A DNA stretch of 33,462 nt, taken from the NCBI GenBank assembly GCA_947478865.1, contig CANJXF010000009.1, forward strand, positions 1 to 33,462. Direction: 5' to 3'. Origin of the DNA: Verrucomicrobiales bacterium (GTDB lineage Bacteria > Verrucomicrobiota > Verrucomicrobiia > Limisphaerales > CANJXF01). This document shows, piece by piece, positions 17,405 through 31,702 of this stretch (position 1 is its first letter; every line of letters starts with the position of its first letter). The notes beneath the pieces were generated by a model. It was not told where the DNA came from and made no database searches. It was given only the letters and a program-made list of their open reading frames with translations. The position numbers were made by a program, and so were the translations under genes.

Positions 17405-17977
17405 ATGAAATCCAGTACTGAATACGCATACAATTCGAAAATCGAAGGTGACGTTGTCATCACGCGAGTCGATGCTGCCCTGAATTGGTTTCGCAAGAAT
17501 TCTGTCTGGCCAATGCCGATGGGGTTGGCCTGTTGCGCGATTGAATTAATGGCTGCGGGCGCGAGCCGTTATGACATTGCGCGCTTTGGATCGGAAGTGA
17601 TGCGGTTTTCGCCGCGCCAATCCGATGTGATGATTGTCGCCGGCACCGTCACATACAAAATGGCGCTGGCTGTCAAACGCATTTATGACCAAATGCCAGA
17701 GCCGAAATGGGTCATCGCGATGGGCGCGTGCGCTTCGACTGGCGGCATGTATCGCAGTTACGCGGTTTTGCAGGGCGTGGATAACATTATTCCGGTAGAT
17801 GTTTATGTGGCTGGTTGCCCGCCGCGGCCCGAAGCGCTGCTCGACGCTCTGATTCGTCTGCAAAATAAAATCGGAAGCGAACCCGTGGATCATCGCCCAC
17901 GTGATTTGGAGCAGCTGGATTCCACTGCGAACCCCGGCACAGCTAAACCTGAATTTGAATTAGCCAATAAGAAATGA
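17405..17977 (+). CDS. nuoB: NADH-quinone oxidoreductase subunit B
   Basis: A 190-residue subunit of the complex I peripheral arm. It binds [4Fe-4S] cluster N2, which passes electrons to quinone. The ligands are visible: tandem Cys43-Cys44 in [11 protein letters not shown], Cys109 in MGACAS and Cys138 in VAGCPPRPE. Length and signatures match the family, with an acidic C-terminal tail. It is the first gene of the nuo operon here, with no nuoA before it. No clear Shine-Dalgarno sequence precedes the ATG. The stop overlaps the nuoC start by 4 bases (ATGA), indicating translational coupling. Confidence 0.98.
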
Positions 17978-18645
17978 GCGCATTGGAATCAGCTCAAAAA
18001 CTTCAGGAGAAATTCGGCGGATTAATTTCCGCTCCGACGGAGTTCCGCGGCGAAATCACGGTCTTGGTCACCGACGCGGAAAAAATCGTGGAAATTTGTT
18101 CGTTCGCAAAAAAAGAATTGGGCTTCGATTATCTCGTCGATCTCAGCAGCGTGGATAATTACGGTAACGATCCGCGTTGGACGCTGGTTTACGAGCTTTA
18201 TGGCTACGGCCATCGTTGCCATTTGCGCCTGAAAACGGACGTGAGCGAGGAGAAATCCGAGTTGCCGACGATCAGCAATGTCTGGCGCACCGCGGATTGG
18301 CACGAGCGCGAAATCTACGACATGATGGGTATTCGTTTTCGCGGACATCCTGACCTTCGCCGCATTTTAATGTGGGACGGTTATCCTTATTTCCCGTTGC
18401 GCAAAGATTTTCCACTTTCTGGCAAACCGAGCGAAATGCCGGACGTCGCTTTCACAAACAAAGCTCCGTTGGAAGGCGGGCCCTTCGTCACGATTTCCGG
18501 CGGAAAAGACACGATCGCCCGCGAACCGCGCGTGCGCATTCCTGAAACGGACGCGCTGGATACGACGAATCGCGTGGAGCGCCGCACGGACATCAAAGAT
18601 TTGCACGGCCACTCGCATGGGCCTGGGCCGATTGAGAAGAAATAG
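17974..18645 (+). CDS. nuoC: NADH-quinone oxidoreductase subunit C
   Basis: A 223-residue 30-kDa subunit, separate from NuoD (the two are fused in E. coli). It has no cofactor and joins NuoD and NuoB in the connecting module. The family signature is visible in [19 protein letters not shown] and [13 protein letters not shown], followed by FPLRKDFPL. The C-terminal tail after about residue 155 is variable and ends in a His-rich HGHSHGPGP segment that could bind metal by chance. It overlaps nuoB by 4 bases and is 2 bases from nuoD. Confidence 0.97.
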
Positions 18646-18647
18646 CA

Positions 18648-19931
18648 ATGGCGACGACTGAAGAAATTCAATTTCGTGATCCCGCAGCGCGTGTTGCGGC
18701 AGCGCAACCGATTTACTCTGCTCCGGTCGGTTCGCCGAACGAGGACTTGCCCGACATGCAGACCGAGAAAATGGTCTTGAACATGGGGCCGTCACATCCG
18801 GCGACACATGGCGTGCTGCGCATTGTTCTCGAAATGGACGGCGAAATTATCACGAAGGCGATTCCCGACGTCGGCTATCTCCATCGCGGCGACGAAAAAA
18901 TCGCCGAGAACATGACTTACACCCAGTTCATTCCTTACACGGATCGACTGGATTATCTCGCGCCACTCGCCAACAACGTCGCCTACGCGCTCGCTGTCGA
19001 AAAGTTGATGGGCATCGACAAACAACTTCCGCCGCGCTGCCAATATATTCGTGTGATTTGCTGCGAGCTCGCTCGTATTTCCGCGCACTTGCTCGGTCTC
19101 GGCGCGTTCGCGATGGATGTAGGCGCGCTCACCGTTTTTCTACACACCTTCACTGAGCGTGAAAAAATTTATAATCTCATCGAAGCGCTGACCGGCGCGC
19201 GTTTCACCACGACTTACACGCGCATCGGCGGACTTTCCCGTGATTTGCCCGTTGGCTGGGTTGAGCAATGCCGAAAATTTCTCGACGAAGTTGTCGTCAA
19301 TTTTGACGAGTCAGAAAAATTGCTCACGCGCAATCGCATCTTCGTCGATCGTACCCGCGACATCGGGGTGATTTCCAAAGAAGACGCGATTGATTACGGA
19401 TTGACTGGACCGAATCTGCGCGGCAGCGGCGTCGATTACGATTTGCGGAAGGCTCATCCGTATCTTTGCTACGCTAATCTGGAATTTGATATTCCGCGCG
19501 GCTCCGTCGGCGATTGTTATGATCGCTATCTCGTTCGCATGGAAGAAATGCGCCAGAGCATTCGAATTTTGAAGCAGTGCCTCGATCAATTGCCCGATGG
19601 TCCAATCAACATCGCCGATGGCAAAATCGTTTTACCGAAAAAGGAAAAAGTCCTGACGAGCATGGAGGAATTGATTCATCAATTCATCCTCGTCACGCAA
19701 GGCGTCAACGCGCCGGTTGGTGAGGTTTATTTCGGTGCAGAAAACCCGAAGGGCGAGCTCGGTTTTTACATCAACAGCAAAGGCGGCGGCACGCCGAACC
19801 GCATGAAAATCCGCGCGCCATCGTTCGTAAACCTGAGCATTTTATCCCACTTGCTGCCGGGCCACATGATGAGTGACACGGTCGCCATTCTGGGTTCGCT
19901 AGATTTCGTGATGGGAGAATGTGATCGATAA
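18648..19931 (+). CDS. nuoD: NADH-quinone oxidoreductase subunit D
   Basis: A 427-residue 49-kDa subunit related to the large subunit of [NiFe] hydrogenases. Together with NuoB it forms the quinone-reduction site. Signatures include NMGPSHPATHGVLRIVLEMDGE (quinone-site His), YLHRGDEKIAE, GGLSRDLPVGW and, near the C-terminus, GELGFYINSKGGGTPNRMKIRAPSF. An N-terminal extension of about 35 residues precedes the conserved core. A purine-rich AGAAGAA lies before the ATG. The stop at 19929-19931 is 1 base before the preferred nuoE start. Confidence 0.98.
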   Translation: MATTEEIQFRDPAARVAAAQPIYSAPVGSPNEDLPDMQTEKMVLNMGPSHPATHGVLRIVLEMDGEIITKAIPDVGYLHRGDEKIAENMTYTQFIPYTDRLDYLAPLANNVAYALAVEKLMGIDKQLPPRCQYIRVICCELARISAHLLGLGAFAMDVGALTVFLHTFTEREKIYNLIEALTGARFTTTYTRIGGLSRDLPVGWVEQCRKFLDEVVVNFDESEKLLTRNRIFVDRTRDIGVISKEDAIDYGLTGPNLRGSGVDYDLRKAHPYLCYANLEFDIPRGSVGDCYDRYLVRMEEMRQSIRILKQCLDQLPDGPINIADGKIVLPKKEKVLTSMEELIHQFILVTQGVNAPVGEVYFGAENPKGELGFYINSKGGGTPNRMKIRAPSFVNLSILSHLLPGHMMSDTVAILGSLDFVMGECDR

Positions 19932-19932
19932 A

Positions 19933-20418
19933 ATGAGTTTCACCATTCCAATCGAATTAGAAGCCGAGTTGAACGAACTCGTGACGCATTATCCGCAGAA
20001 GCGGAGCGCGTCGCTCATGTTCCTCCACGCGATTCAGGAACACTTCGGCTACATCTCAAAAGAAGCGATGGAATGGACGGCGGCGAAGCTCGAATTGTCG
20101 CCGATCAACATTTACGAGTTGGTGACTTTTTATCCGATGTTCCGCCAGGAACCGGCGGGCAAATATCAGATCAAAGTTTGCCGCACCTTGAGCTGCGCTT
20201 TGGCTGGTTCCGGAAAACTGCACAAACATTTTTGTGAAAAATTCGGTTTGGATTCCCATGCGCACGGAGTGCAAACGAGCAAAGACGGAGAGTTCTCCGT
20301 CGAATTTGTCGAGTGCCTCGCCAGTTGCGGCACCGGCCCGGTGATGATGTGCAACGAAGATTTTTACGAAGCCGTTTCAAATTCCAAAGCAGACGAGATT
20401 TTACAGACGTGCAAGTAA
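19933..20418 (+). CDS. nuoE: NADH-quinone oxidoreductase subunit E
   Basis: A 161-residue 24-kDa subunit carrying the [2Fe-2S] cluster N1a in the NADH-oxidising module with NuoF and NuoG. The thioredoxin-like domain contains the ligands Cys83 and Cys88 (CRTLSC) and Cys128 and Cys132 (CLASC). The N-terminal helical part (YPQKRSASLMFLHAIQEHFGYI) is typical. The ATG at 19933 is preferred; a GTG at 19921 is in frame, but the GGGAG before it is only 3 bases away. After its stop comes a 157-base gap before nuoF, which holds an antisense tRNA-Gln gene. Confidence 0.97.
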   Translation: MSFTIPIELEAELNELVTHYPQKRSASLMFLHAIQEHFGYISKEAMEWTAAKLELSPINIYELVTFYPMFRQEPAGKYQIKVCRTLSCALAGSGKLHKHFCEKFGLDSHAHGVQTSKDGEFSVEFVECLASCGTGPVMMCNEDFYEAVSNSKADEILQTCK

Positions 20419-20425
20419 CGAAAAT

Positions 20426-20499
20426 TGGCTGCCCGACATGGATTTGAACCATGACAAACAGATTCAGAGTCTGTTGTGCTACCGTTACACCATCGGGCA
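20426..20499 (-). tRNA. tRNA-Gln(CTG), antisense inside the nuo operon
   Basis: A 74-nt tRNA on the minus strand. The acceptor stem TGCCCGA pairs with TCGGGCA (U1-A72, usual for glutamine), with discriminator G and an encoded CCA at 20426-20428. The D-arm reads GGTGTAACGGTAGC, the anticodon stem ACAGA/TCTGT encloses CTCTGAA (anticodon CTG), and the T-arm contains GGTTCAAATCC. It decodes CAG. It sits between nuoE and nuoF, opposite to their direction, and has its own promoter-like boxes on the minus strand. Confidence 0.97.
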
Positions 20500-20575: not shown

Positions 20576-22000
20576 ATGCCGCAACAATATCGGCTCATTT
20601 TAAAAAATATCGACGCGCCAGGTTACACGAACGACCTCGATTGTTACGTGCGCCACGGCGGCTACGAAGCTTTGAAAAAAGCGTTCGAGATGGGCCCGCG
20701 TGTTTCGCCCGATGGCGGCACGGTGAGCGGTCCTGAAAAGATTCGTAAAACCGTCCTCGAATCGGGTTTGCGCGGTCGCGGTGGTGCGGGTTTTTCCGCG
20801 GGTTTGAAATGGAGTTTCGTTGATCGCAAGAGCGGCAAGCCGATTTATCTCATCTGCAACGCCGACGAATCCGAGCCCGGCACCTTCAAAGATCGCCAGA
20901 TCATTTACAAAGATCCGCACCAGTTGATCGAAGGAATGATCATCTCCTGCTACGCGAACGACGTTCATCTCGCTTACATTTACATTCGCGGCGAATTTCC
21001 CGAAGGCGCGCGCATTTTGAAACGAGCTTTGGCTGAAGCGAAGGCGAAAAATCTCCTCGGCAAAAAGATTCTCGGCAGCGATTACGATCTGGAGATTTAC
21101 ATTCATCGCGGCGCGGGCGCTTACATTTGCGGCGAAGAAACCGGCCTCATCGAATCGCTTGAAGGCAAGCGCGCTTACCCCCGCATCAAGCCGCCGTATT
21201 TTCCGGCGATCCTCGGCCTCTACATGTGCCCGACCATCGTCAACAACGTTGAGACGCTTTGCCACGTGAGGCACATCGTCAACATGGGCGGCGCGGATTA
21301 CGCGAAGCTCGGCACGCCCAACAACACCGGGACACGCATCGTCAGCTTGAGCGGCCAGGTTAAAAAGCCCGGGTATTACGAAATCGAAGTCGGAAAAGTG
21401 ACGATCGGTGAATTAATTAATCACGAGAATTTCGGCGGCGGTTTGCTTGACGGTCGAAAGTTGAAAGCAATTATCCCCGGCGGGTCATCCGCGAAAGTTT
21501 TTAAAGCGGGCGAAAAATTCAAGCTCAAGAAAAAAGGCGCCGACGGCCAGATGACCACCGTCGAAGTGGACATGCTCGATTTGCCTTATGATTTCGATTC
21601 ACTGCAAGCTGCCGGCAGCATGTCCGGTTCGAGCGCGATCATCGTCATGGACGACAGCGTGGATATCGTCGAAGCGCTCGCGAATCTCAGCGAATTCTAC
21701 GCGCACGAAAGTTGCGGCCAATGCACCCCGTGCCGCGAAGGTTCGCTCTGGATGAGCAAAGCGCTCCATCGCATGACGCACGGCGAAGGCCGCAAACAGG
21801 ATGCCGATTATTTGCTGAACATCGCGCAGAATATTCAGGGCCGAACAATCTGCGCCTTCGGCGAAGCCTGCTCCTGGCCGGTGTTGAGTTTCGTGAAGAA
21901 ATTCAAAGACGAATTCGAAGCCAAAGGTGCCGCTGACGAATCTCGCAACAAAGTCGCGGCAACAAGCAAAGTGACAATCGCGGCCAGTCCGCAACGTTGA
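20576..22000 (+). CDS. nuoF: NADH-quinone oxidoreductase subunit F
   Basis: A 474-residue 51-kDa subunit that binds NADH and FMN and carries [4Fe-4S] cluster N3. Signatures are GLRGRGGAGFSAGLKWSF (nucleotide and FMN loop at about residues 65-82), CNADESEPGTFKDR, YICGEETGLIESLEG, and the cluster ligands in HESCGQCTPCREGSLWM plus Cys in RTICAFGEACSWP. I start at the ATG at 20576; an in-frame TTG at 20546 falls inside the hairpin and is unlikely. No good Shine-Dalgarno sequence is seen. The stop codon is followed 5 bases later by the DUF4160 start. Confidence 0.97.
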   Translation: MPQQYRLILKNIDAPGYTNDLDCYVRHGGYEALKKAFEMGPRVSPDGGTVSGPEKIRKTVLESGLRGRGGAGFSAGLKWSFVDRKSGKPIYLICNADESEPGTFKDRQIIYKDPHQLIEGMIISCYANDVHLAYIYIRGEFPEGARILKRALAEAKAKNLLGKKILGSDYDLEIYIHRGAGAYICGEETGLIESLEGKRAYPRIKPPYFPAILGLYMCPTIVNNVETLCHVRHIVNMGGADYAKLGTPNNTGTRIVSLSGQVKKPGYYEIEVGKVTIGELINHENFGGGLLDGRKLKAIIPGGSSAKVFKAGEKFKLKKKGADGQMTTVEVDMLDLPYDFDSLQAAGSMSGSSAIIVMDDSVDIVEALANLSEFYAHESCGQCTPCREGSLWMSKALHRMTHGEGRKQDADYLLNIAQNIQGRTICAFGEACSWPVLSFVKKFKDEFEAKGAADESRNKVAATSKVTIAASPQR

Positions 22001-22005
22001 CGGCG

Positions 22006-22311
22006 ATGCCCAAACTTTACGTTTATTTTGGTTTGGTGGTTTATTTTTACGCGAACGAGCATGAACCGATTCACGTTCACGGAGAATTTCAGGGGCAAGA
22101 ATGCAAAGCAGAATTTGTTTTGAAAAACGGGAAAGTGGTGCGGATTATTTTTTGCAATATTACCGGAAGGCCGCCGTTAACAGGCGTGCATTTGAAGGAT
22201 TTCAAAGCGCTGGTGCGTGTTAAGGCTAATGACATTGTTAAGCGTTGGGTGGATTTCTTTGTGCTCAAGAAGCACAACAAACCAGAAATCATCACACGAA
22301 AATTAAAATGA
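22006..22311 (+). CDS. DUF4160 family protein (toxin-antitoxin-like cassette)
   Basis: A 101-residue protein starting at the ATG at 22006, 5 bases after the nuoF stop. The N-terminus (MPKLYVYFGLVVYFYANEH) and the EPIHVHGEF motif are the DUF4160 hallmarks, followed by a small beta sheet and a C-terminal helix (LKDFKALVRVKANDIVKRWV). It has no signal peptide, membrane helix or metal-cluster motif and is not a complex I subunit. DUF4160 genes often neighbour DUF2442 genes, as here, and the pair is widely suspected to be a toxin-antitoxin-like or regulatory cassette; I know of no proven activity. The stop overlaps the DUF2442 start (ATGA). This stretch is visibly richer in A and T than the nuo genes, which suggests later insertion. 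Confidence 0.85.
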   Translation: MPKLYVYFGLVVYFYANEHEPIHVHGEFQGQECKAEFVLKNGKVVRIIFCNITGRPPLTGVHLKDFKALVRVKANDIVKRWVDFFVLKKHNKPEIITRKLK

Positions 22312-22568
22312 AAACAACAGCGATAAAATATTTGGAGATTGAGGAGGCCGAATACGTTTCGGGCTACAAGCTTCGCCTTGTTTTCAATGATGGTATTTAT
22401 CAAACCGTAGATTTCGAGCCGTTTTTGCGCCAGGCACAAAATCCCGACCTCACTCAGTATCGCCAGTTGCGAAAGTTCAAAAACTTTCATCTGCATTACG
22501 GAAACCTCATGTGGGGCGATTACGAAATGATCTTCCCCATCGCAGATTTGCACGCTGGAAAAATTTAA
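22308..22568 (+). CDS. DUF2442 family protein (partner of DUF4160)
   Basis: An 86-residue protein starting at the ATG at 22308, overlapping the DUF4160 stop by 4 bases. It has the DUF2442 (NE0471-like N-terminal domain) pattern: IKYLEIEEAEYVSGYKLRLVFNDG, then VDFEPFL, then a C-terminal strand around LHYGNLMWGDYEMIFPIADLH. The family is short and sometimes fused to a helix-turn-helix domain; none is present here. It could be the antitoxin or partner of DUF4160. The stop is 2 bases before nuoG, so the pair is transcribed and probably translated together with complex I. Whether it acts on complex I is unknown. Confidence 0.85.
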   Translation: MKTTAIKYLEIEEAEYVSGYKLRLVFNDGIYQTVDFEPFLRQAQNPDLTQYRQLRKFKNFHLHYGNLMWGDYEMIFPIADLHAGKI

Positions 22569-22570
22569 TC

Positions 22571-24283
22571 ATGTCGAACGCGACAACAACTGAAACAAAA
22601 CCCGCGCCGCCGCCGGTCGATAAGATGAAAATCAAAATCGACGGGCGCGAAATTGAAGTGCCCAAGATGATGCCGGATTGGCAGGGCAAACTTCAGCCGA
22701 CGACCATGCTCCAGGCTTGCGCCGCCGCCGGCCACGACGTGCCGCATTATTGTTATCATCCGAAACTTCCCATCGCCGGAAATTGCCGGATGTGCCTCGT
22801 GGAATTCGGCACGCCCGCCATGGGGCCTGATCGCAAGCCCGTTCTCAACGAAGACGGCTCTGCGAAAATCGCCAAATCCGTTTTGCCTTACGAACCTACT
22901 TCGCCGCGCGGCGCGATTGCCTGCGCGACTCCGATTTCGCCAGGAATGGAAATTTATCCAAACTCGCCTGCGACCAAACAAATGCGCGAAGCCGTTTTGG
23001 AATCGCTGCTCATCAATCATCCGCTCGATTGCCCGATCTGCGATCAGGCTGGCGAATGCAAACTGCAGGAATACTCCGTCGATCACGGAAATGCCGCGAG
23101 CCGTTTCGTTGAAGAAAAAGTTCACAAACCCAAGCACGTCGATCTTGGCCCGCGCATCGTTCTCGACGACGAGCGTTGCATTCTCTGTTCGCGTTGCGTT
23201 CGGTTCACGAAAGATATCGTGGGCGACGATGCGCTTGGCTTCGCGCAACGCGGCAGCCACAACACGCTCACCAATTTTCCAGGTAAACAGTTCGACAACA
23301 ATTACACGCTCAATACCGTGGACATCTGTCCCGTTGGCGCGCTGACTTCGAAAGATTTTCGTTTCAAAATGCGCGTCTGGTTTTTGAAGGAAACCAAAAG
23401 CATCTGCACGAGTTGCGCAACCGGTTGCAACGTCATCGTCGGTTCGCGCGAAGGGAATGTTTATCGATACGAGCCGCGCGAGAACGACGCCGTGAATTCC
23501 TGCTGGATGTGCGATTCTGGTCGGCTCAATTATAAGTGGATCAATCGCGAAGATCGGCTGACCGAAGTCCAACATCTAAAATCCAAAGCCCAAAGTTGGC
23601 CGATGGCGCTCAAAGAAATTTCTGAAGTTTTGCGTAAAGCTTCGTCGGGTTCGGTCGCCATCGTCGCTTCCGCTCGTCAGACGAACGAAGAACTTTATTT
23701 GCTAAAAAAACTCGCAACGAAATTCAATGCGATTACCGATTCCGTTCCGCGCCATGGTGAGAGCGACAAGCTTTTGTTGAACGCGGATCGCAATCCGAAC
23801 AGCAACGGCGCGAAACTCATTGGCATTTCTCCCGCGCAAATGGGTTCCAATCTGCCGAAGATCGCCGACGGCATTCGCAACGGAACCATCAAAACCTTAA
23901 TCGTTTTCGGCGAAGATGTGACCAAACACGGCATCGGCACGGATTTGCTCGTCAAGCTCGACCACTTGATTGTTTCTGACATTTTGCCAAACAAAACGAC
24001 GGAATCGGCGCATTATCTTTTGCCCGGCTGCGCGCACGCCGAGAAGCGCGGCAGTTTTGTGAATGCCAAAGGTCGCGTGCAACGTTTCCTCCAGGCGATT
24101 CAGCCGAAAGGCGACGCTCGCCCCGAGTGGGAATTTTTGCACGAACTCGTTTTTAATGTCACCGGCCAGAATGGTTTTGCGAGCATCGAAGGTTTATTCA
24201 ACCAAATGGCGCAGGAAATTCCCGCGTTCAACGGCGTGACCTGGGCCGTGCTCGGTGATGCCGGCGTGACCATCCCAACTTGA
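22571..24283 (+). CDS. nuoG: NADH-quinone oxidoreductase subunit G (short form, N7 site kept)
   Basis: A 570-residue iron-sulfur subunit of the NADH module. Cluster ligands are visible: [2Fe-2S] N1b by Cys61, Cys72, Cys75 and probably Cys118; N5 by the His-Cys3 motif in NHPLDCPICDQAGEC; N4 in CILCSRCVRF and the later DICPVGALT. A further motif C-x2-C-x3-C-x27-C at Cys279, 282, 286 and 314 matches the off-path cluster N7 known from E. coli and Thermus. The molybdopterin-oxidoreductase-like C-terminal part is short, about 250 residues, so the protein is well below the roughly 900 residues of E. coli NuoG. The frame is intact to a stop 1 base before nuoH, and the last residues look natural, so I read it as a short variant, not a pseudogene. 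Confidence 0.96.
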   Translation: MSNATTTETKPAPPPVDKMKIKIDGREIEVPKMMPDWQGKLQPTTMLQACAAAGHDVPHYCYHPKLPIAGNCRMCLVEFGTPAMGPDRKPVLNEDGSAKIAKSVLPYEPTSPRGAIACATPISPGMEIYPNSPATKQMREAVLESLLINHPLDCPICDQAGECKLQEYSVDHGNAASRFVEEKVHKPKHVDLGPRIVLDDERCILCSRCVRFTKDIVGDDALGFAQRGSHNTLTNFPGKQFDNNYTLNTVDICPVGALTSKDFRFKMRVWFLKETKSICTSCATGCNVIVGSREGNVYRYEPRENDAVNSCWMCDSGRLNYKWINREDRLTEVQHLKSKAQSWPMALKEISEVLRKASSGSVAIVASARQTNEELYLLKKLATKFNAITDSVPRHGESDKLLLNADRNPNSNGAKLIGISPAQMGSNLPKIADGIRNGTIKTLIVFGEDVTKHGIGTDLLVKLDHLIVSDILPNKTTESAHYLLPGCAHAEKRGSFVNAKGRVQRFLQAIQPKGDARPEWEFLHELVFNVTGQNGFASIEGLFNQMAQEIPAFNGVTWAVLGDAGVTIPT

Positions 24284-24284
24284 A

Positions 24285-25391
24285 ATGATCAGCGCACTGA
24301 CAAATTTATATGATGGTTTAGGTCCGGTGGGCCAATTCGCCCTCTGGAGCTTTGTCAAAATTGCAGCGCTGTTTGGCGCTGTGATGACGTTCGTCGCCTA
24401 TTCGGTGTTGGCCGAGCGAAAAATTTCCGCCTTCATTCAAGATCGCGTTGGACCAAATCGCGTCGCACTTCCGCTGATTGGATCGATTCCGATTATCGGT
24501 CCGTTCCTGACAAATCTCGGGGTTTGGCAACCTTTGGCGGATGGCGTGAAATCATTTCTAAAGGAAGATTTTACTCCGAGCTACGTGAGGAAAGCTTATT
24601 TCTGGATTGCTCCTGCGATCACGTTTATTCCGGCATTCCTCGTTCTCGCGGTGATTCCGTTCGGCTCCTTTTTGGGCGAACAGAAAATGGTGATCGCCGA
24701 TTTGAACGTCGGAATTTTGTTCACGTTCGGAATTATTTCACTCGGCGTTTACGGAATCGTTTTGGCCGGTTACGCATCGAATTCCAAATATCCGTTTCTC
24801 GGCGGAATCCGTTCCAGCGCGCAAATGATTTCGTACGAAATTTCGATGGGACTCGCTGTCATTCCAGTTTTTCTGATTGTTGGTAAACTGAACCTGGGCG
24901 AAATCATCCTCCATCAGGCGCAGCATGGTTGGCTGATTTTTTATGCGCCGATTTCGTTCGTCATTTTCATCGTCTCTGCTTTCGCGGAAACCAATCGTCT
25001 GCCATTTGATTTGCCTGAATCCGAAACCGAGCTTGTCGCCGGATACAACACTGAATACAGCTCGATGAAGTTCGCGCTCTTCTTCATGGGCGAATACACG
25101 AACATGATCGCCGCTTCCGCGATGATGGTTGTTTTGTTTTTCGGCGGCTGGACGTTGCCGTTCGGTGGGCTTGACCAGCCGGCGCAACCAGCTGAATGGC
25201 TGCGAGGCCTGGCGCACATCGGAATTTTCGTCGCCAAAATGCTGGTGTTCATGGTGATCTTCATCTGGATTCGCTGGATGCTCCCGCGCTTCCGTTACGA
25301 CCAACTGATGGACCTGGGTTGGCGCAGATTTTTGCCATTGGCCCTGATCAATATTTTGATCACAGCGGTGGTGCTTTGGTTGAGAAGTTAA
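24285..25391 (+). CDS. nuoH: NADH-quinone oxidoreductase subunit H
   Basis: A 368-residue membrane subunit linking the quinone cavity to the proton-pumping arm; about eight helices, all hydrophobic stretches visible. Signatures include ERKISAFIQDRVGPNRV in the first cytoplasmic loop, GGIRSSAQMISYEISMGLAV and ETNRLPFDLPESETELVAGYNTEYSS with the acidic residues lining the quinone tunnel. The start ATG lies 1 base after the nuoG stop. A 4-base gap separates it from nuoI. Confidence 0.98.
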   Translation: MISALTNLYDGLGPVGQFALWSFVKIAALFGAVMTFVAYSVLAERKISAFIQDRVGPNRVALPLIGSIPIIGPFLTNLGVWQPLADGVKSFLKEDFTPSYVRKAYFWIAPAITFIPAFLVLAVIPFGSFLGEQKMVIADLNVGILFTFGIISLGVYGIVLAGYASNSKYPFLGGIRSSAQMISYEISMGLAVIPVFLIVGKLNLGEIILHQAQHGWLIFYAPISFVIFIVSAFAETNRLPFDLPESETELVAGYNTEYSSMKFALFFMGEYTNMIAASAMMVVLFFGGWTLPFGGLDQPAQPAEWLRGLAHIGIFVAKMLVFMVIFIWIRWMLPRFRYDQLMDLGWRRFLPLALINILITAVVLWLRS

Positions 25392-25395
25392 GAAA

Positions 25396-25962
25396 ATGAT
25401 CGTTGAACGTAAAAAATTAAATTTTTGGGAACGGCTTTACCTGCCCGCCATTTTGGGCGGAATTAAAGTCACCGCGCGCCACTTCGGGCGAACCCTGTTC
25501 AAAGGCAAAACGGCCGGAAAAGAATTGTCCGGCGGTTATTATCCCGAGAAAAAATGGACCGTAGCCGAAGGCTATCGCGGCGCGCCCTACCTCGTCAGAG
25601 ATCCAGAAGGCAACACCAAGTGCGTGTCCTGCCAGCTCTGCGAATTCGTCTGTCCGCCCAAGGCCATCAAAATTACTCCGCCGGGTCCGGTCATGAGCAA
25701 TGCCGATCGTCCAAACGCGGAAAAGATGCCGAAGGAATTCGAGATCAACATGCTGCGTTGCATCTTCTGCGGCTTCTGCCAGGAAGTTTGTCCCGAAGAA
25801 TCAATTTTTCTGCAAAAGGATTATTCGCTCAATGGCCTGAGCCGCAGCGAAATGATTTACAACAAAGAAAAACTTCTCGCACTCGGCGGCGTGAACAACA
25901 GCCCGATTTTCAAGTGGAAACAAAAAGCCGAAGAAGCCAAAGCCCAAGGCATCGCTCCTTAA
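25396..25962 (+). CDS. nuoI: NADH-quinone oxidoreductase subunit I
   Basis: A 188-residue ferredoxin-like subunit holding [4Fe-4S] clusters N6a and N6b, which relay electrons from NuoG to NuoB. Ligand sets are C76-x2-C79-x2-C82-x3-C86 (CVSCQLCEFVCP) and C122-x2-C125-x2-C128-x3-C132 (CIFCGFCQEVCP). The amphipathic N-terminal part (FWERLYLPAILGGIKVTARHF) sits at the membrane. Length is in the usual range. The next gene begins 11 bases after its stop. Confidence 0.98.
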   Translation: MIVERKKLNFWERLYLPAILGGIKVTARHFGRTLFKGKTAGKELSGGYYPEKKWTVAEGYRGAPYLVRDPEGNTKCVSCQLCEFVCPPKAIKITPPGPVMSNADRPNAEKMPKEFEINMLRCIFCGFCQEVCPEESIFLQKDYSLNGLSRSEMIYNKEKLLALGGVNNSPIFKWKQKAEEAKAQGIAP

Positions 25963-25973
25963 AAATGTAATCG

Positions 25974-26483
25974 ATGCAAACCCAGGACATTTTCTTTTAT
26001 GTTTTCGCGCTGCTCACCGTGATTTGCGCCGTGATGGTGGTCGCCAATCCACTCAGCCGGAATCCGGTCACGAGCGCGATGTTTCTCGTTTTGACCATTG
26101 TTTGCATGGCCGGCCTTTTCGTTTTGCTCCACGCTTTCTTCCTGGCAGCCGTGCAGATTCTGGTTTACGCCGGCGCGGTGATGGTGCTGTTCCTTTTCGT
26201 TATCATGTTGCTCGATCTGAAAGAAGAAGAGCGGCGCAAGGTTAAAATTGTTGGCGCTGGTTTGGGAACAATATCCGTTGGCGCTGTCGCGTTTCTTCTC
26301 TTCCGAATAATTCTTACCTCTTCGAAAGGTGCCGCAAATGCAGCGCCTCAACTCGAAGGCTCAACCTCTTCTCTGGGAACGCTGCTCTTCTCAAAATACG
26401 TTTTGCCTTTTGAAATTTTGTCGTTGCTGTTGTTGGTGGCGATGGTCGGTGTGATTCTCCTGAGCAAAAAGGATTTAAAATGA
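25974..26483 (+). CDS. nuoJ: NADH-quinone oxidoreductase subunit J
   Basis: A 169-residue membrane subunit with five predicted helices. The conserved third helix with its pi-bulge is seen in AAVQILVYAGAVMVLFLFVIML. It sits next to NuoA and NuoK at the joint of the two arms and takes part in coupling quinone reduction to proton movement. The loop before the last helix (KGAANAAPQLEGSTSS) is typical low-complexity sequence. Its stop overlaps the nuoK start by 4 bases. Confidence 0.96.
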   Translation: MQTQDIFFYVFALLTVICAVMVVANPLSRNPVTSAMFLVLTIVCMAGLFVLLHAFFLAAVQILVYAGAVMVLFLFVIMLLDLKEEERRKVKIVGAGLGTISVGAVAFLLFRIILTSSKGAANAAPQLEGSTSSLGTLLFSKYVLPFEILSLLLLVAMVGVILLSKKDLK

Positions 26484-26788
26484 CCCCGGTTGGACTCGAA
26501 CATTTTCTCGTCGTCAGCGGAGTGCTTTTTTGCCTCGGACTCTGGGGCGTCATTGTGCGCCGCAATCTGCTCATCATGTATATGTCGCTGGAGTTGATGC
26601 TCAACGCCGCCAATCTCGCGCTCGTTTCCTTTTCCCGGTTCAACAACAGACTCGATGGCCAGATCATGGTGTTTTTCATCATCACGGTTGCGGCGGCGGA
26701 AGTCGCTGTCGGGTTGGCGCTGATTGTGGCGCTCTATCGAAAGAAACAAACCGCGCACGTCGAAGATTTGGCGACGATGAAATTGTAA
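26480..26788 (+). CDS. nuoK: NADH-quinone oxidoreductase subunit K
   Basis: A 102-residue membrane subunit, related to MrpC, with three helices. The two conserved membrane glutamates needed for proton transfer are visible: Glu38 in MYMSLELMLNAANL and Glu74 in TVAAAEVAVGLAL. The length is exactly that expected. It overlaps nuoJ by 4 bases and is 3 bases from nuoL. Confidence 0.97.
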   Translation: MTPVGLEHFLVVSGVLFCLGLWGVIVRRNLLIMYMSLELMLNAANLALVSFSRFNNRLDGQIMVFFIITVAAAEVAVGLALIVALYRKKQTAHVEDLATMKL

Positions 26789-26791
26789 TCG

Positions 26792-28666
26792 ATGAACGAT
26801 TTGCTTCCAAATTTACCGTGGTCGGTCCTGTTTTTGCCGCTGCTATCGGCGGTGGCAATTGCCTTGTTCACCAAAAAAAATCGCGGGCTCAGCGCCGGTA
26901 TCTCCATCGGCGCGATTGTAATCTCGTTTCTGCTCAGTGCTTTCCTGTTCTTCCAATATCGTGACGCAAAACAAATTCCAGACACAGTTCTTTCATGGGT
27001 ATCCGTAGGCAATCTCAGCGTCGATATTGGCATAAAGTTGGACTCGCTCAGCTTGCTCATGTTGCTGATCGTTACCGGCGTCGGCAGTGCGATTCATATT
27101 TATTCCTGGGGTTACATGCACGAAGATCGCGCCGTCTCGCGCTACTTCGCCAGCCTGAGTCTCTTCACGTTCTCAATGCTCGGAATCGTGCTTGCCACCA
27201 ATTTTTTCCAAATGTTCATTTTTTGGGAACTGGTCGGCGTCTCCAGTTATTTGCTCATCGGATTCTGGTATGAGCGCGCCTCGGCCGCGGACGCTGCGAA
27301 AAAAGCTTTTATCACCAACCGCCTTGGTGACTTCGGATTTCTGATTGGCATCATCATGGTTTGGGCATTGGCGGGTTCACTAAGCTTCGGCACGCTGCAA
27401 GAATCCTTCAAAGCCAACCCTCAAATTCTGGGAGCTTCTGCGACTCTCGCCGGCCTTTTGATTTTCTGCGGAGCGATGGGCAAGTCCGCGCAATTTCCGC
27501 TGCACGTCTGGTTGCCAGACGCGATGGAAGGCCCGACTCCCGTCAGCGCATTGATCCACGCCGCGACGATGGTTGCTGCTGGCGTCTACATGCTCTGCCG
27601 CGTTTTTTTCCTGTTCAATTTGCCCGCGCTCGAAATCATTTCCTGGATCGGTGGTTTCACGGCATTGCTCGCCGCCGTCATTGCTGTCCAACAAAACGAC
27701 ATCAAACGCATTCTTGCTTATTCCACGCTCTCGCAACTCGGTTACATGGTTATGGCCGTAGGTGTGGGCGGCCCGGCTGCCGCAATGTTTCATCTCACCA
27801 CGCACGCGTTTTTTAAAGCGCTTTTATTTCTCGGCGCCGGTTCGGTGATTCATGCGCTCCATCATGAACAGGACATTTGGAAAATGGGCGCGCTGAAAAA
27901 GAAAATGCCCGTCACGTTCTGGACCTTTCTAATCGGAACGCTCGCGCTCGCTGGAATTCCGCCGTTCAGCGGCTTTTACAGCAAAGACGCCGTTCTCGCC
28001 GCTGCGTTCGAACACAACGCCATTCTATTCATCGTCGCAACGCTTGTCGCCGCGCTCACTGCGTTTTACATGTTCCGCCTTTTCTTCGTGGCCTTTCTCG
28101 GCGCGCCGAAATCCGACGCCAGCGATCATGCGCACGAATCGCCGAAAATAATGACCATGCCGCTTCAAATATTGGCGGTGCTCGCGGTCATTGGCGGATT
28201 GATCGGCATCGACACTTTCATTGGAAAAACATTTCAGCCTGAGGCGCACGCTGTCCATTTCGCGGAAAGATTTTTAGCTCCGTTTGGCCACGCTCCAATG
28301 GCTGCGCTATTCGGGATTCTGGCCTCAGTTATCGGATTCAGCATCGCCTGGTCGCTTTACGCAAATGCCTCTTGCGATCCGCTTCCCGAAAAACTCGGCG
28401 TCCTCTCTCGCGCTATGCGGAACAAGTTTTACTTCGATGAAATCTATTCCGGTCTCATCGCCATCACGCATGAAGCGGCGTCGCGACTCGCAGATTTCAT
28501 CGACCGCTGGATTGTCGCCGGTCTCATGGTACGAGGTGCGCATGGCACCACTGAGCTTTTTGGCCGCGCGCTGCGATTGGTCCAGACCGGCAATCTGCAA
28601 ATCTACGCGTTCCTCTTTGTCGCTGGCGTGGCGGTTGTGCTCTATTTCGTCCTGTTCCGCTCATGA
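26792..28666 (+). CDS. nuoL: NADH-quinone oxidoreductase subunit L
   Basis: A 624-residue Mrp-antiporter-like proton channel at the far end of the membrane arm, with about sixteen helices and the long lateral amphipathic helix near the C-terminus. Key features are Glu146 in FIFWELVGVSSYLLIGFW, the Lys in MGKSAQFPLHVWLPDAMEGPTP, and HHEQDIWKMGALKKKMP. The C-terminal part (KLGVLSRAMRNKFYFDEIYSGLI) is the usual family ending. It overlaps the nuoM start by 4 bases. Confidence 0.98.
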   Translation: MNDLLPNLPWSVLFLPLLSAVAIALFTKKNRGLSAGISIGAIVISFLLSAFLFFQYRDAKQIPDTVLSWVSVGNLSVDIGIKLDSLSLLMLLIVTGVGSAIHIYSWGYMHEDRAVSRYFASLSLFTFSMLGIVLATNFFQMFIFWELVGVSSYLLIGFWYERASAADAAKKAFITNRLGDFGFLIGIIMVWALAGSLSFGTLQESFKANPQILGASATLAGLLIFCGAMGKSAQFPLHVWLPDAMEGPTPVSALIHAATMVAAGVYMLCRVFFLFNLPALEIISWIGGFTALLAAVIAVQQNDIKRILAYSTLSQLGYMVMAVGVGGPAAAMFHLTTHAFFKALLFLGAGSVIHALHHEQDIWKMGALKKKMPVTFWTFLIGTLALAGIPPFSGFYSKDAVLAAAFEHNAILFIVATLVAALTAFYMFRLFFVAFLGAPKSDASDHAHESPKIMTMPLQILAVLAVIGGLIGIDTFIGKTFQPEAHAVHFAERFLAPFGHAPMAALFGILASVIGFSIAWSLYANASCDPLPEKLGVLSRAMRNKFYFDEIYSGLIAITHEAASRLADFIDRWIVAGLMVRGAHGTTELFGRALRLVQTGNLQIYAFLFVAGVAVVLYFVLFRS

Positions 28667-30213
28667 ATTCAATTTTAACATACATCATTTTAGCGCCGCT
28701 GATTGGAGCGCTGGTCGTGCTGCTCGTTCCGCGCAATTTCCGGTTCATCATCCGGGGAATTGCGCAGGCGGCCACTCTGATTTCGATGGTTCTGGCCATT
28801 AAAATGTTCTTCTTCGATTTCACCACCAACTTTCCGCGCGAGCAATTGACGGAAAAAATCCAGTGGGTTGCTTCGCTCGGAATTAACTACCACGTCGGAG
28901 TCGATGGACTGAATGTCGGGTTGATTCTGATGGGAGCGATTGTGGCGTTCGCGGCGGTCTGCGTCTCGCACAACATCAAAACCTACGAGAAAGAATTTTA
29001 CATTCTCCTGCTCGTGATGACCGGTGGCATTCTCGGCGCGTTTGCGTCGCTCGACTTATTCTTTTTCTACTTCTTTCACGAACTCGCGCTCGTTCCGACC
29101 TTCATCATGATTGGCGTTTGGGGACGCGGCGAAAATAAAAACTACGCCACTTTTCAAATTACTCTTTACCTCAGCATCGGAGCATTGCTGGCCTTGGTGG
29201 GCCTGATCGCACTTTATCTTCAGCTCCCTCTCGGGAATCGCACGTTCAACATCATCGAGCTCACAAAATATTTCAAAGCGCAGCCGATGAACCTCGCCGC
29301 GCAACAATTTATTTTCCCGCTGCTCCTGTTTGGCTTTGGCATTCTGGTTTCGCTTTGGCCGTTTCACACCTGGGCGCCTCTCGGTTACGGCTCTGCTCCG
29401 AGTGCGACCGCCATGCTGCACGCCGGCGTTCTGAAAAAATTTGGCCTTTACGGCCTCATTCGCATCGCCCTTCCGCTCATGCCGGATGCTTCCCAAAGCT
29501 GGCTGCACGTCCTCGCCGTTCTCTGTTTAGGCAATATTGTTTACTGCGGATTTGTGGCAATGCGCCAACGCGATCTCAATTTGCTCATCGGCAATTCCAG
29601 CGTCGCGCACATGGGTTTTTGTTTTCTCGGCATCGCGAGCCTCACCCTGATTGGAATTACCGGCGCTGTCACTGTGATGGTTGCGCACGGGTTACTCGCG
29701 GCGCTGACGTTCGCCTTGAGCGGCTACATTTATCAGCAAACCGGCACGCTCGATATTAGGCAAATGGGTGGACTGCTTCGCCAGATTCCGTTCATCGGCG
29801 CGGCGCTCGTCATGGCGGCGATGGCGGGTTGCGGCCTTCCTGGATTTGCCAATTTTCCGGGTGAAGCGCTGGTGCTATTCGGCGCTTGGAAGGCATTTCC
29901 GCTCGTCACCGCGCTCGCAGTTTGGGGCGCGCTCGTCATTGGCGCCGTTTATATGCTGCGTGCGGTCCGCAATATTTTGCATGGACCGATGGCTGCCAAT
30001 CAAACCCCCATCGCCGACGCATCGCTCTTGCGCAAATTGCCTTACGCTTTGCTCCTCGCAACGTTGCTTCTCTTCGGCTTTGTCCCAAGTCTGTTGACCG
30101 ACAAGATCAAACCGAGCGCGCAGTCGATTGTGGAAATGGCCACGCGACCGTTAAAGATCCAGAAAATGGAAAAGGATTCCTCCGCGACCGCACCTCGAGC
30201 TGCGGTGAAATGA
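28663..30213 (+). CDS. nuoM: NADH-quinone oxidoreductase subunit M
   Basis: A 516-residue antiporter-like proton channel of the membrane arm with about fourteen helices. Conserved Glu140 lies in YFFHELALVPTFIMIG, and the broken-helix block is WPFHTWAPLGYGSAPSATAMLHAGVLKKFG. Then come NSSVAHMGFCFLG and LPGFANFPGE. The last 30 residues are a polar tail (EKDSSATAPRAAVK) beyond the usual end. It overlaps nuoL by 4 bases and is followed 1 base later by nuoN. Confidence 0.98.
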   Translation: MNSILTYIILAPLIGALVVLLVPRNFRFIIRGIAQAATLISMVLAIKMFFFDFTTNFPREQLTEKIQWVASLGINYHVGVDGLNVGLILMGAIVAFAAVCVSHNIKTYEKEFYILLLVMTGGILGAFASLDLFFFYFFHELALVPTFIMIGVWGRGENKNYATFQITLYLSIGALLALVGLIALYLQLPLGNRTFNIIELTKYFKAQPMNLAAQQFIFPLLLFGFGILVSLWPFHTWAPLGYGSAPSATAMLHAGVLKKFGLYGLIRIALPLMPDASQSWLHVLAVLCLGNIVYCGFVAMRQRDLNLLIGNSSVAHMGFCFLGIASLTLIGITGAVTVMVAHGLLAALTFALSGYIYQQTGTLDIRQMGGLLRQIPFIGAALVMAAMAGCGLPGFANFPGEALVLFGAWKAFPLVTALAVWGALVIGAVYMLRAVRNILHGPMAANQTPIADASLLRKLPYALLLATLLLFGFVPSLLTDKIKPSAQSIVEMATRPLKIQKMEKDSSATAPRAAVK

Positions 30214-30214
30214 A

Positions 30215-31702
30215 ATGAATTTGATCACGCTAGAAATTGCAGTCGTCATTCTTGCCCTCGCGGTTTTGCTGGGTGATTTGTGGACGCCGGTCGCGCACAA
30301 GCGAAGTCTTGGCTATGCCGCGGCGGGTGGTCTCATCATAATCTTTAGCTACAGCTTTTTCGCGGCTCCGGCTTTTGGTTCCGGTTTCAATGACATGCTG
30401 GTTGTCGACGGCCTTTCGCTCTTTTTTAAACGCTTCTTTTTGGTCGCCGCAATCATCGTCATTTTCATCGCCCTAGAGTTCGCCGACCGTATTGAAACCG
30501 GCATATCGGAATTCTATTCCCTGATTCTCTTTGCTCTGACCGGGATGATGTTTGCCGCTTCGGCTAACGATTTCGTGCTCGTATTTGTCTCGCTCGAATT
30601 GGTTTCCGTGACGTTTTACGTGCTGAATAGTTTCCAGCGTAATCGACTCGCTTCATTGGAAGCGGGAATCAAATACCTGATTCTCAGTGCGCTTTCCGCC
30701 GCATTCCTCGTTTTCGGAATCGCGTTCATCTTTGGCACCAGTGGCACAACAAATTTTTCGGCAATTCACGGATTGCTCGAGACAGGTCCAGATTTCGGAA
30801 AGAACTCGGCGTTTCTGCTCGGGATTTTATTCGTGATCGTCGGGCTCGGATTCAAAATCGCGACGTTCCCGTTTCAAATCTGGGCGCCAGACGTTTATCA
30901 GGGCTCGCCTGCGCCCGCGACGGCATTTCTTGCCATCGGTTCCAAAGCCGCAGGAATTGTTTTGTTGCTGCGCGTATTATTCATTGCTGTGCCCCAAGTT
31001 GCGCTGCACTGGAACACGTTGCTCATCGTGCTGGCGGCAATCACGATTCTTTACGGAAATCTTTGCGCAATTCCGCAACGAAATCTGAAACGGCTCCTCG
31101 GCTATTCCAGCATCGCGAACGCCGGTTATTTGCTGCTTGGATTTGCGGCGCTGAACCAAACCGGTTTCGCTGCCATCCTCTATTATTTGTGCGGCTATTT
31201 GTTTGCCGTGCTCGCTGCGTTCATGGTCATTTCCATCGTCACGTGTGGACGCGATTCCGAAGACGTCACCGTTCTCGCGGGCTTGAATCAGCGCTCACCG
31301 CTCCTCGCCACCGTCCTGACTTTGGCCATGATTTCGCTCGCGGGCATCCCGCCGCTCGCTGGATTTTTTGGAAAATTCCTTTTGTTGAAGGCTGTCGTGG
31401 AACAAGGCGCAACCAACTCCGCTTACTATTGGCTCGTTGGCATCACGCTCATTGGGGTGGTGATTTCGCTCTACTACTATTTTGGAATCATCCGCGCAAT
31501 TTATTGGTCGAAAGAACCTGCCGATCTTTCCCCGGTGATCGTTTCGTGGCCCGCGCGAGCCGTGCTCATCGTTTGCGCTGCCGGAATGCTTTATCTCGGC
31601 CTGCTGCCCGATCGAGCCGTTCAGCAGACGCAGCTCGCGGTGCAAGTCCTGAAGGTCAACTCGCCCGCGGTCCAAATTCAAAAAGAGGCGCGCCATCCAT
31701 AG
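30215..31702 (+). CDS. nuoN: NADH-quinone oxidoreductase subunit N
   Basis: A 495-residue antiporter-like proton channel, the last gene of the operon. Glu128 lies in FVSLELVSVTFYVLNSF; the broken-helix block is FPFQIWAPDVYQGSPAPATAFLAIGSKAAG; and RNLKRLLGYSSIANAGYLLLG follows. The C-terminus carries a short polar tail. It is convergent with pyruvate kinase, with only 32 bases between the two stop codons and no obvious terminator hairpin there. Confidence 0.98.
   Translation: MNLITLEIAVVILALAVLLGDLWTPVAHKRSLGYAAAGGLIIIFSYSFFAAPAFGSGFNDMLVVDGLSLFFKRFFLVAAIIVIFIALEFADRIETGISEFYSLILFALTGMMFAASANDFVLVFVSLELVSVTFYVLNSFQRNRLASLEAGIKYLILSALSAAFLVFGIAFIFGTSGTTNFSAIHGLLETGPDFGKNSAFLLGILFVIVGLGFKIATFPFQIWAPDVYQGSPAPATAFLAIGSKAAGIVLLLRVLFIAVPQVALHWNTLLIVLAAITILYGNLCAIPQRNLKRLLGYSSIANAGYLLLGFAALNQTGFAAILYYLCGYLFAVLAAFMVISIVTCGRDSEDVTVLAGLNQRSPLLATVLTLAMISLAGIPPLAGFFGKFLLLKAVVEQGATNSAYYWLVGITLIGVVISLYYYFGIIRAIYWSKEPADLSPVIVSWPARAVLIVCAAGMLYLGLLPDRAVQQTQLAVQVLKVNSPAVQIQKEARHP

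Follow-up and report, generated by a model that had tools for sequence, protein, structure and literature searches.

A DhiTA-type toxin–antitoxin cassette between nuoF and nuoG, probably a mobile operon parasite of complex I operons in one order of Verrucomicrobiota

Introduction

The closest described relative of the locus presented here is dhiTA of Dickeya dadantii, a type II toxin–antitoxin (TA) system in which a DUF4160 toxin gene stands first and a DUF2442 antitoxin gene second, with an overlap of a few nucleotides and co-transcription of the two (PMC8198452). This module is driven from a repressed promoter of its own, and its description does not place it within a respiratory operon (PMC8198452). 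A second relative is the Persistence Enhancing Module (PEM) of Thermus thermophilus plasmids, a tandem of DUF4160 and DUF2442 genes located behind a replication gene, which stabilises the plasmids that carry it. Attempts to introduce into Thermus a construct that kept DUF4160 but lacked DUF2442 failed, and DUF4160 was therefore taken to be the toxin (PMC12724237). With regard to setting, the nearest parallel is provided by PabI-family restriction–modification systems of Helicobacter and Campylobacter, which are addiction-type modules that reside in host metabolic operons, are maintained for long periods and yet transferred horizontally, compete with different modules for one operon site, and contain broken toxic genes (PMC10273834). 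A search of the literature returned no report of TA insertions in nuo, nor in nuo of Verrucomicrobiota.

The pair described here lies between nuoF and nuoG in a window of 33,462 nt, meaning the whole stretch of DNA that was analysed. It is a further member of a known TA type, so that novelty resides in its setting and not in the pair itself. We consider it likely that the pair represents a type II TA cassette of the DhiTA kind, which persists as a mobile operon parasite, or addiction cassette, expressed in step with nuo. G, C, L and f numbers are our labels for genomes, contigs, loci and families, respectively.

Position, borders and composition of the locus

The host operon and the pair within it are arranged as follows:

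17405..20418, + strand: nuoB, nuoC, nuoD and nuoE of the host operon (Pfam)
20426..20499, − strand: tRNA-Gln(CTG) gene in the nuoE–nuoF interval, antisense to the operon (ARAGORN; Rfam tRNA, 65.9 bits)
20576..22000, + strand: nuoF, the upstream host gene (Complex1_51K, 157 bits)
22001..22005: spacer of 5 nt from the nuoF stop to the toxin start
22006..22311, + strand: DUF4160 gene, putative DhiT-type toxin, 101 aa (Pfam PF13711; EHxPxHVHG motif; AlphaFold2 model; toxicity of homologues, PMC8198452, PMC12724237)
22308..22568, + strand: DUF2442 gene, putative DhiA-type antitoxin, 86 aa (Pfam PF10387; A3 alignment; kept where the toxin is lost)
22569..22570: spacer of 2 nt from the antitoxin stop to the nuoG start
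22571..24283, + strand: nuoG, the downstream host gene (Fer4_Nqo3, Molybdopterin and other nuoG domains)
24285..31702, + strand: the host genes nuoH to nuoN (ORF positions, and a matching gene order in relatives, from tblastn; the names rest on order and similarity, not on a Pfam scan)

The toxin gene begins with the ATG at 22006 and nuoG with the ATG at 22571, whilst the DUF2442 start (22308) falls within an ATGA that creates the 4-nt overlap between the two small genes. An earlier note on this DNA, made from the sequence alone, had given this layout of two spacers and one overlap, and its coordinates are exact. Both nuoF and nuoG are full-length on either side of the pair. At other sites where a toxin gene directly follows a host gene, the spacer is similarly short, at 5–9 nt. 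The same note had described the stretch as richer in A and T than the nuo genes, in agreement with G+C contents of 54 % in nuoF and nuoG but 41 and 44 % in the two small genes. Because the pair is also poorer in G+C than its hosts in all 12 of the other loci of its clade that were compared, this would appear to be a lasting trait of the cassette rather than proof of recent arrival. A wrong assembly join between nuoF and nuoG, the error that the note had feared, is excluded by the identical arrangement in independent genomes of other families, and the locus is therefore not an accident of assembly.

Of 32 relatives whose nuo loci were scanned, 31 contain a tRNA-Gln(CTG) gene. Read on its reverse strand, the tRNA gene yields a spurious ORF, WLPDMDLNHDKQIQSLLCYRYTIGQ, which is at risk of mistaken annotation as a gene. 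Elsewhere in the window genome (G000) there is a second, decayed DUF4160/DUF2442 locus (contig C4, 68885–69265; L148), which has two stops in the DUF4160 frame and a DUF2442 frame that is open over a partial match.

Identity of the pair

Both products pass the curated Pfam cut-offs, with 34.6 bits against 23 for DUF4160 (PF13711) and 29.1 bits against 23.9 for DUF2442 (PF10387), and the arrangement of toxin gene first and antitoxin gene second, with a 4-nt overlap, is in the same order as in Dickeya dhiTA. From its homologues we infer that the pair is a DhiTA-type TA system with a toxic DUF4160 product. The earlier note had ventured that the two were suspected TA-like partners; their TA-like nature stands, but the wording was too cautious, as such pairs are already known from experiment to act as TA systems (PMC8198452; PMC12724237). 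An EHxPxHVHG motif is conserved among DUF4160 relatives, and is a candidate for the active region of the toxin. An AlphaFold2 model of DUF4160 built with 28 relatives displays strands followed by two helices (pLDDT 93.8), an earlier model from six sequences having been too poor for use (pLDDT 46.5). A fold search with the better model gave no match at E 0.001 in the PDB or among viral models (best VIA-align Z 5.4), a sequence search of solved structures returned no significant match for DUF4160 or DUF2442, and PADLOC called nothing for the pair itself.

The locus would seem to differ from the Dickeya module in its expression, as the 5 nt that separate nuoF from the toxin gene are too few to accommodate a promoter. 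A promoter scan, confined to sigma-70-like types, gave three matches against a mean of 1.6 (sd 1.3) in shuffled sequences, which is near chance.

Distribution of the pair in the order

A profile of the DUF2442 clade was run over 320 genomes of the same order, together with a scan of named genomes (records titled Verrucomicrobia, and one Pedosphaera). Members of the close clade occur at nuoF–nuoG in 13 genomes, and as a remnant in one more (G141), giving 14 genomes from 11 families. Two of these (G216 and G157) have only one flank visible owing to a contig end, and G266 displays only a short end of nuoF, with nuoG not found in the 5 kb covered. The earlier note had reckoned with the pair being absent from this site in all relatives; instead, it is present there in other families. 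Two further copies of the close clade are found at nuoC–nuoD (G105 and G107), and one contig carries a copy beside cimA (L092; cimA was named by reading the sequence rather than by a domain scan). Eight loci form a sister clade (L140–L147, from G207, G204, G248, G234, G154, G219, G156 and G006), which spans three families and is flanked by a P-type ATPase-like gene on one side and an ABC-transporter gene on the other (names likewise read from sequence), with the toxin lost in three of the eight. A more distant DUF4160/DUF2442 subfamily, with strong Pfam scores, is located at nuoH–nuoI of G036 and G018 (L040 and L069).

As to what might carry the cassette, there was no relative of the window DUF2442 in a plasmid collection, none of the window DUF4160 in a phage collection, and no member of the DUF2442 clade among viral contigs; thus, no carrier was found. 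This sets the pair, which is chromosomal and within nuo, apart from the plasmid-borne PEM of Thermus (PMC12724237). The two-gene cassette itself contains no mobility gene and no transposase.

The nuo operon of G036 holds two DUF4160/DUF2442 pairs and one DUF4258/DUF2283 pair, and at nuoC–nuoD of G107 (L133, 5110–6752) a DUF2442 gene without DUF4160 lies behind HigB/HigA-like genes (no Pfam scan) and before a long uncharacterised gene.

The nuoF–nuoG junction and its other residents

Amongst 51 one-per-family genomes, which leave out the window genome, a long insert is present at nuoF–nuoG in ten and absent from 41. The contents of the ten are varied:

G002 and G036: DhiTA
G036, in front of DhiTA: DUF4258/DUF2283 (DUF4258 match below the Pfam cut-off)
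G005: DhiTA remnant
G033, G037 and G021: ParE with antitoxin (ParE match below the cut-off in G037)
G003: Type II methyltransferase and Type II restriction enzyme (E 1.9e-76 for the restriction enzyme)
G017: methyltransferase with an unassigned partner
G050: PD-(D/E)XK protein
G023: unassigned gene, a relative of which follows the pair in G082

The ParE/addiction-antitoxin and DUF4258/DUF2283 pairs resemble the window pair in being two small coupled genes at the same junction, but belong to unrelated protein families. In this order the spot repeatedly seats TA or restriction–modification genes, and these are probably operon parasites and not parts of complex I. In contrast to the PabI-family cases (PMC10273834), the host operon here encodes complex I in the phylum Verrucomicrobiota, a TA pair is its chief occupant, and a single junction accepts both TA and restriction–modification modules across many families. 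That DhiTA and further addiction modules settle time and again in the nuo operon of a single order extends the known idea of operon insertion by such modules (PMC10273834), and shows that TA and restriction–modification modules can share one seat in a host operon, as was earlier reported for restriction–modification in amino-acid operons.

One alternative is passive tolerance, in which the nuo operon of this order simply accepts inserts at a range of junctions, and the pair, an ordinary chromosomal TA system, landed there with neither preference for the site nor benefit from addiction. In its favour, nine of the ten nuo junctions examined contained inserts, amongst them IS200-like transposases, nucleotidyltransferases and a ferritin-like gene, the exception being B–C (0 of 32). 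Of the 54 DUF2442 loci counted in 58 genomes, just six fall within nuo. Those six are, however, well above the 0.18 expected by length, and even when the nuoF–nuoG clade is counted once, to allow for copies that share part of their descent, p is about 7e-4. Long inserts occur at 35/416 nuo junctions in all, with 10/51 at nuoF–nuoG as opposed to 25/365 at the other junctions (p 0.005, for a junction picked after seeing the data). Tolerance alone is, on this evidence, an unlikely account. Outside nuo, gaps of more than 250 bp were found at 2/357 ribosomal junctions and 0/94 ATP synthase junctions (20 genomes each); these control operons may simply be less permissive of insertions. Amongst 34 loci from other orders of the class, 26 nuoF–nuoG junctions were measurable, and two of these junctions exceed 300 bp, one with a long ORF; the site is thus not closed there, but less used in this small sample.

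Some of the other inserts within nuo also recur. Nucleotidyltransferase-like genes are found at nuoE–nuoF or nuoD–nuoE in G051, G037, G033, G024 and G018 (L038, L053, L060, L064 and L069), two of them being AbiEii-like with a small gene in front. Long inserts at nuoG–nuoH occur in G033 (L060, 7124–8476) and G020 (L068), and one of these inserts encodes 450 aa with similarity to AAA and NUDIX proteins.

Single or repeated insertion

All nuo-linked copies fall into a single clade with support of 100/99, and most copies across the order share the nuoF–nuoG junction with near-identical borders. Both features would be expected of an ancient vertical insertion, that is, a single entry at nuoF–nuoG in the ancestor of the order that was mostly lost and only rarely moved to nuoC–nuoD or cimA. 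The copies of G002 and G082, from two families, similarly look vertical, having diverged about as much as nuoF and nuoG. Against this, AU tests reject the nuoF–nuoG copies as one clade (p 2.9e-9), and also three copies from the one genus that contains G216, G225 and G244 (p 1.2e-5). Pair identity amongst the nuoF–nuoG copies shows no correlation with NuoF identity (r = −0.03), and a moderate one with NuoG identity (r = 0.40). G216 (family f42, nuoF–nuoG) and G105 (family f60, nuoC–nuoD) have toxins that are 94 % identical at different junctions, as compared to 84 % for NuoF, with dS values of 0.59 and 1.02, the lower being that of the pair. A single entry would also require very many clean losses, and we regard it as quite improbable. 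The comparison with nuo genes proposed in the earlier note thus yields a pair tree that fits neither those genes nor a single insertion. Profiles of flank identity revealed no clear block of raised identity of the kind that would prove homologous transfer. As the G002 and G082 copies look vertical, mobility is intermittent, and the cassette can stay at a site for long periods and yet be transferred and re-inserted.

A probable mobile operon parasite

The earlier note had left two alternatives, a selfish cassette or a stress-response pair, and it is the former that finds support: sites are empty in most relatives, the tree is incongruent, close kin occur at nuoC–nuoD and beside cimA, and unrelated TA and restriction–modification cassettes occupy the same junction. 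In the mobile operon parasite that we favour, the DUF2442 antitoxin would neutralise the DUF4160 toxin, as has been shown for homologues, and the spacing makes it most likely that the cassette is transcribed with nuo and translated by coupling. Were the segment lost or disrupted, leftover toxin would presumably outlast the antitoxin, making the insertion hard to delete. Comparison amongst genomes further shows that the cassette moves horizontally inside the order and inserts anew between genes, mostly at junctions of nuo, and that it often ends with an inactivated toxin and a remaining antitoxin. A more specific version, in which one lineage of DhiTA has become a specialist of the nuo operon in a single order, prefers nuo junctions for re-insertion and, through its tie to nuo transcription, guards the operon by punishing loss or silencing of respiration genes, seems to us improbable. 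Sites that are empty, occupied, occupied anew or decayed form a natural series in a core energy operon, and this makes it directly testable whether chromosomal TA systems are selfish or useful.

Toxin decay and selection

In seven loci (G005, G225, G266, G107, G204, G154 and G156) the toxin is absent or broken and the antitoxin frame open, for instance by deletion of the toxin in G005 and by a stop at codon 7 in G225. No intact toxin without antitoxin was found among the loci examined; the G141 remnant consists of a toxin that has no start codon and is fused to an antitoxin tail. The resulting seven antitoxin-only against zero toxin-only loci give a two-sided sign test of 0.016, or of 0.03 if G154 and G156 are counted as one event (six against zero). 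As judged from the reading frames, this asymmetry fits the roles proposed for toxin and antitoxin.

The pair is not a component of complex I, as it is missing from nuoF–nuoG in most relatives where presence with nuo would be expected of a subunit or assembly factor, and a role in assembly is not supported. Functional recruitment, whereby the pair is expressed with respiration and either adjusts complex I synthesis or assembly or stops growth when the operon is silenced, could draw on the tight coupling on both sides, the strong bias of the clade to nuo junctions, the purifying selection on both genes and the retention of antitoxin without toxin, but is very unlikely given that no long insert separates the intact nuoF and nuoG genes in about 80 % of relatives, that unrelated cassettes, restriction–modification included, occupy the same place, that the toxin is broken in several copies and that one close copy lies beside cimA. 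The stress-response pair of the earlier note, tuning complex I, accordingly finds no support, with toxins decaying whilst the operon persists.

With regard to the strength of selection, dN/dS is ≤ 0.16 for both genes wherever it was measurable. Between G154 and G156, both of which are without toxin, the antitoxin has a dN/dS of 0.09, which hints that it retains a function after the toxin has gone.
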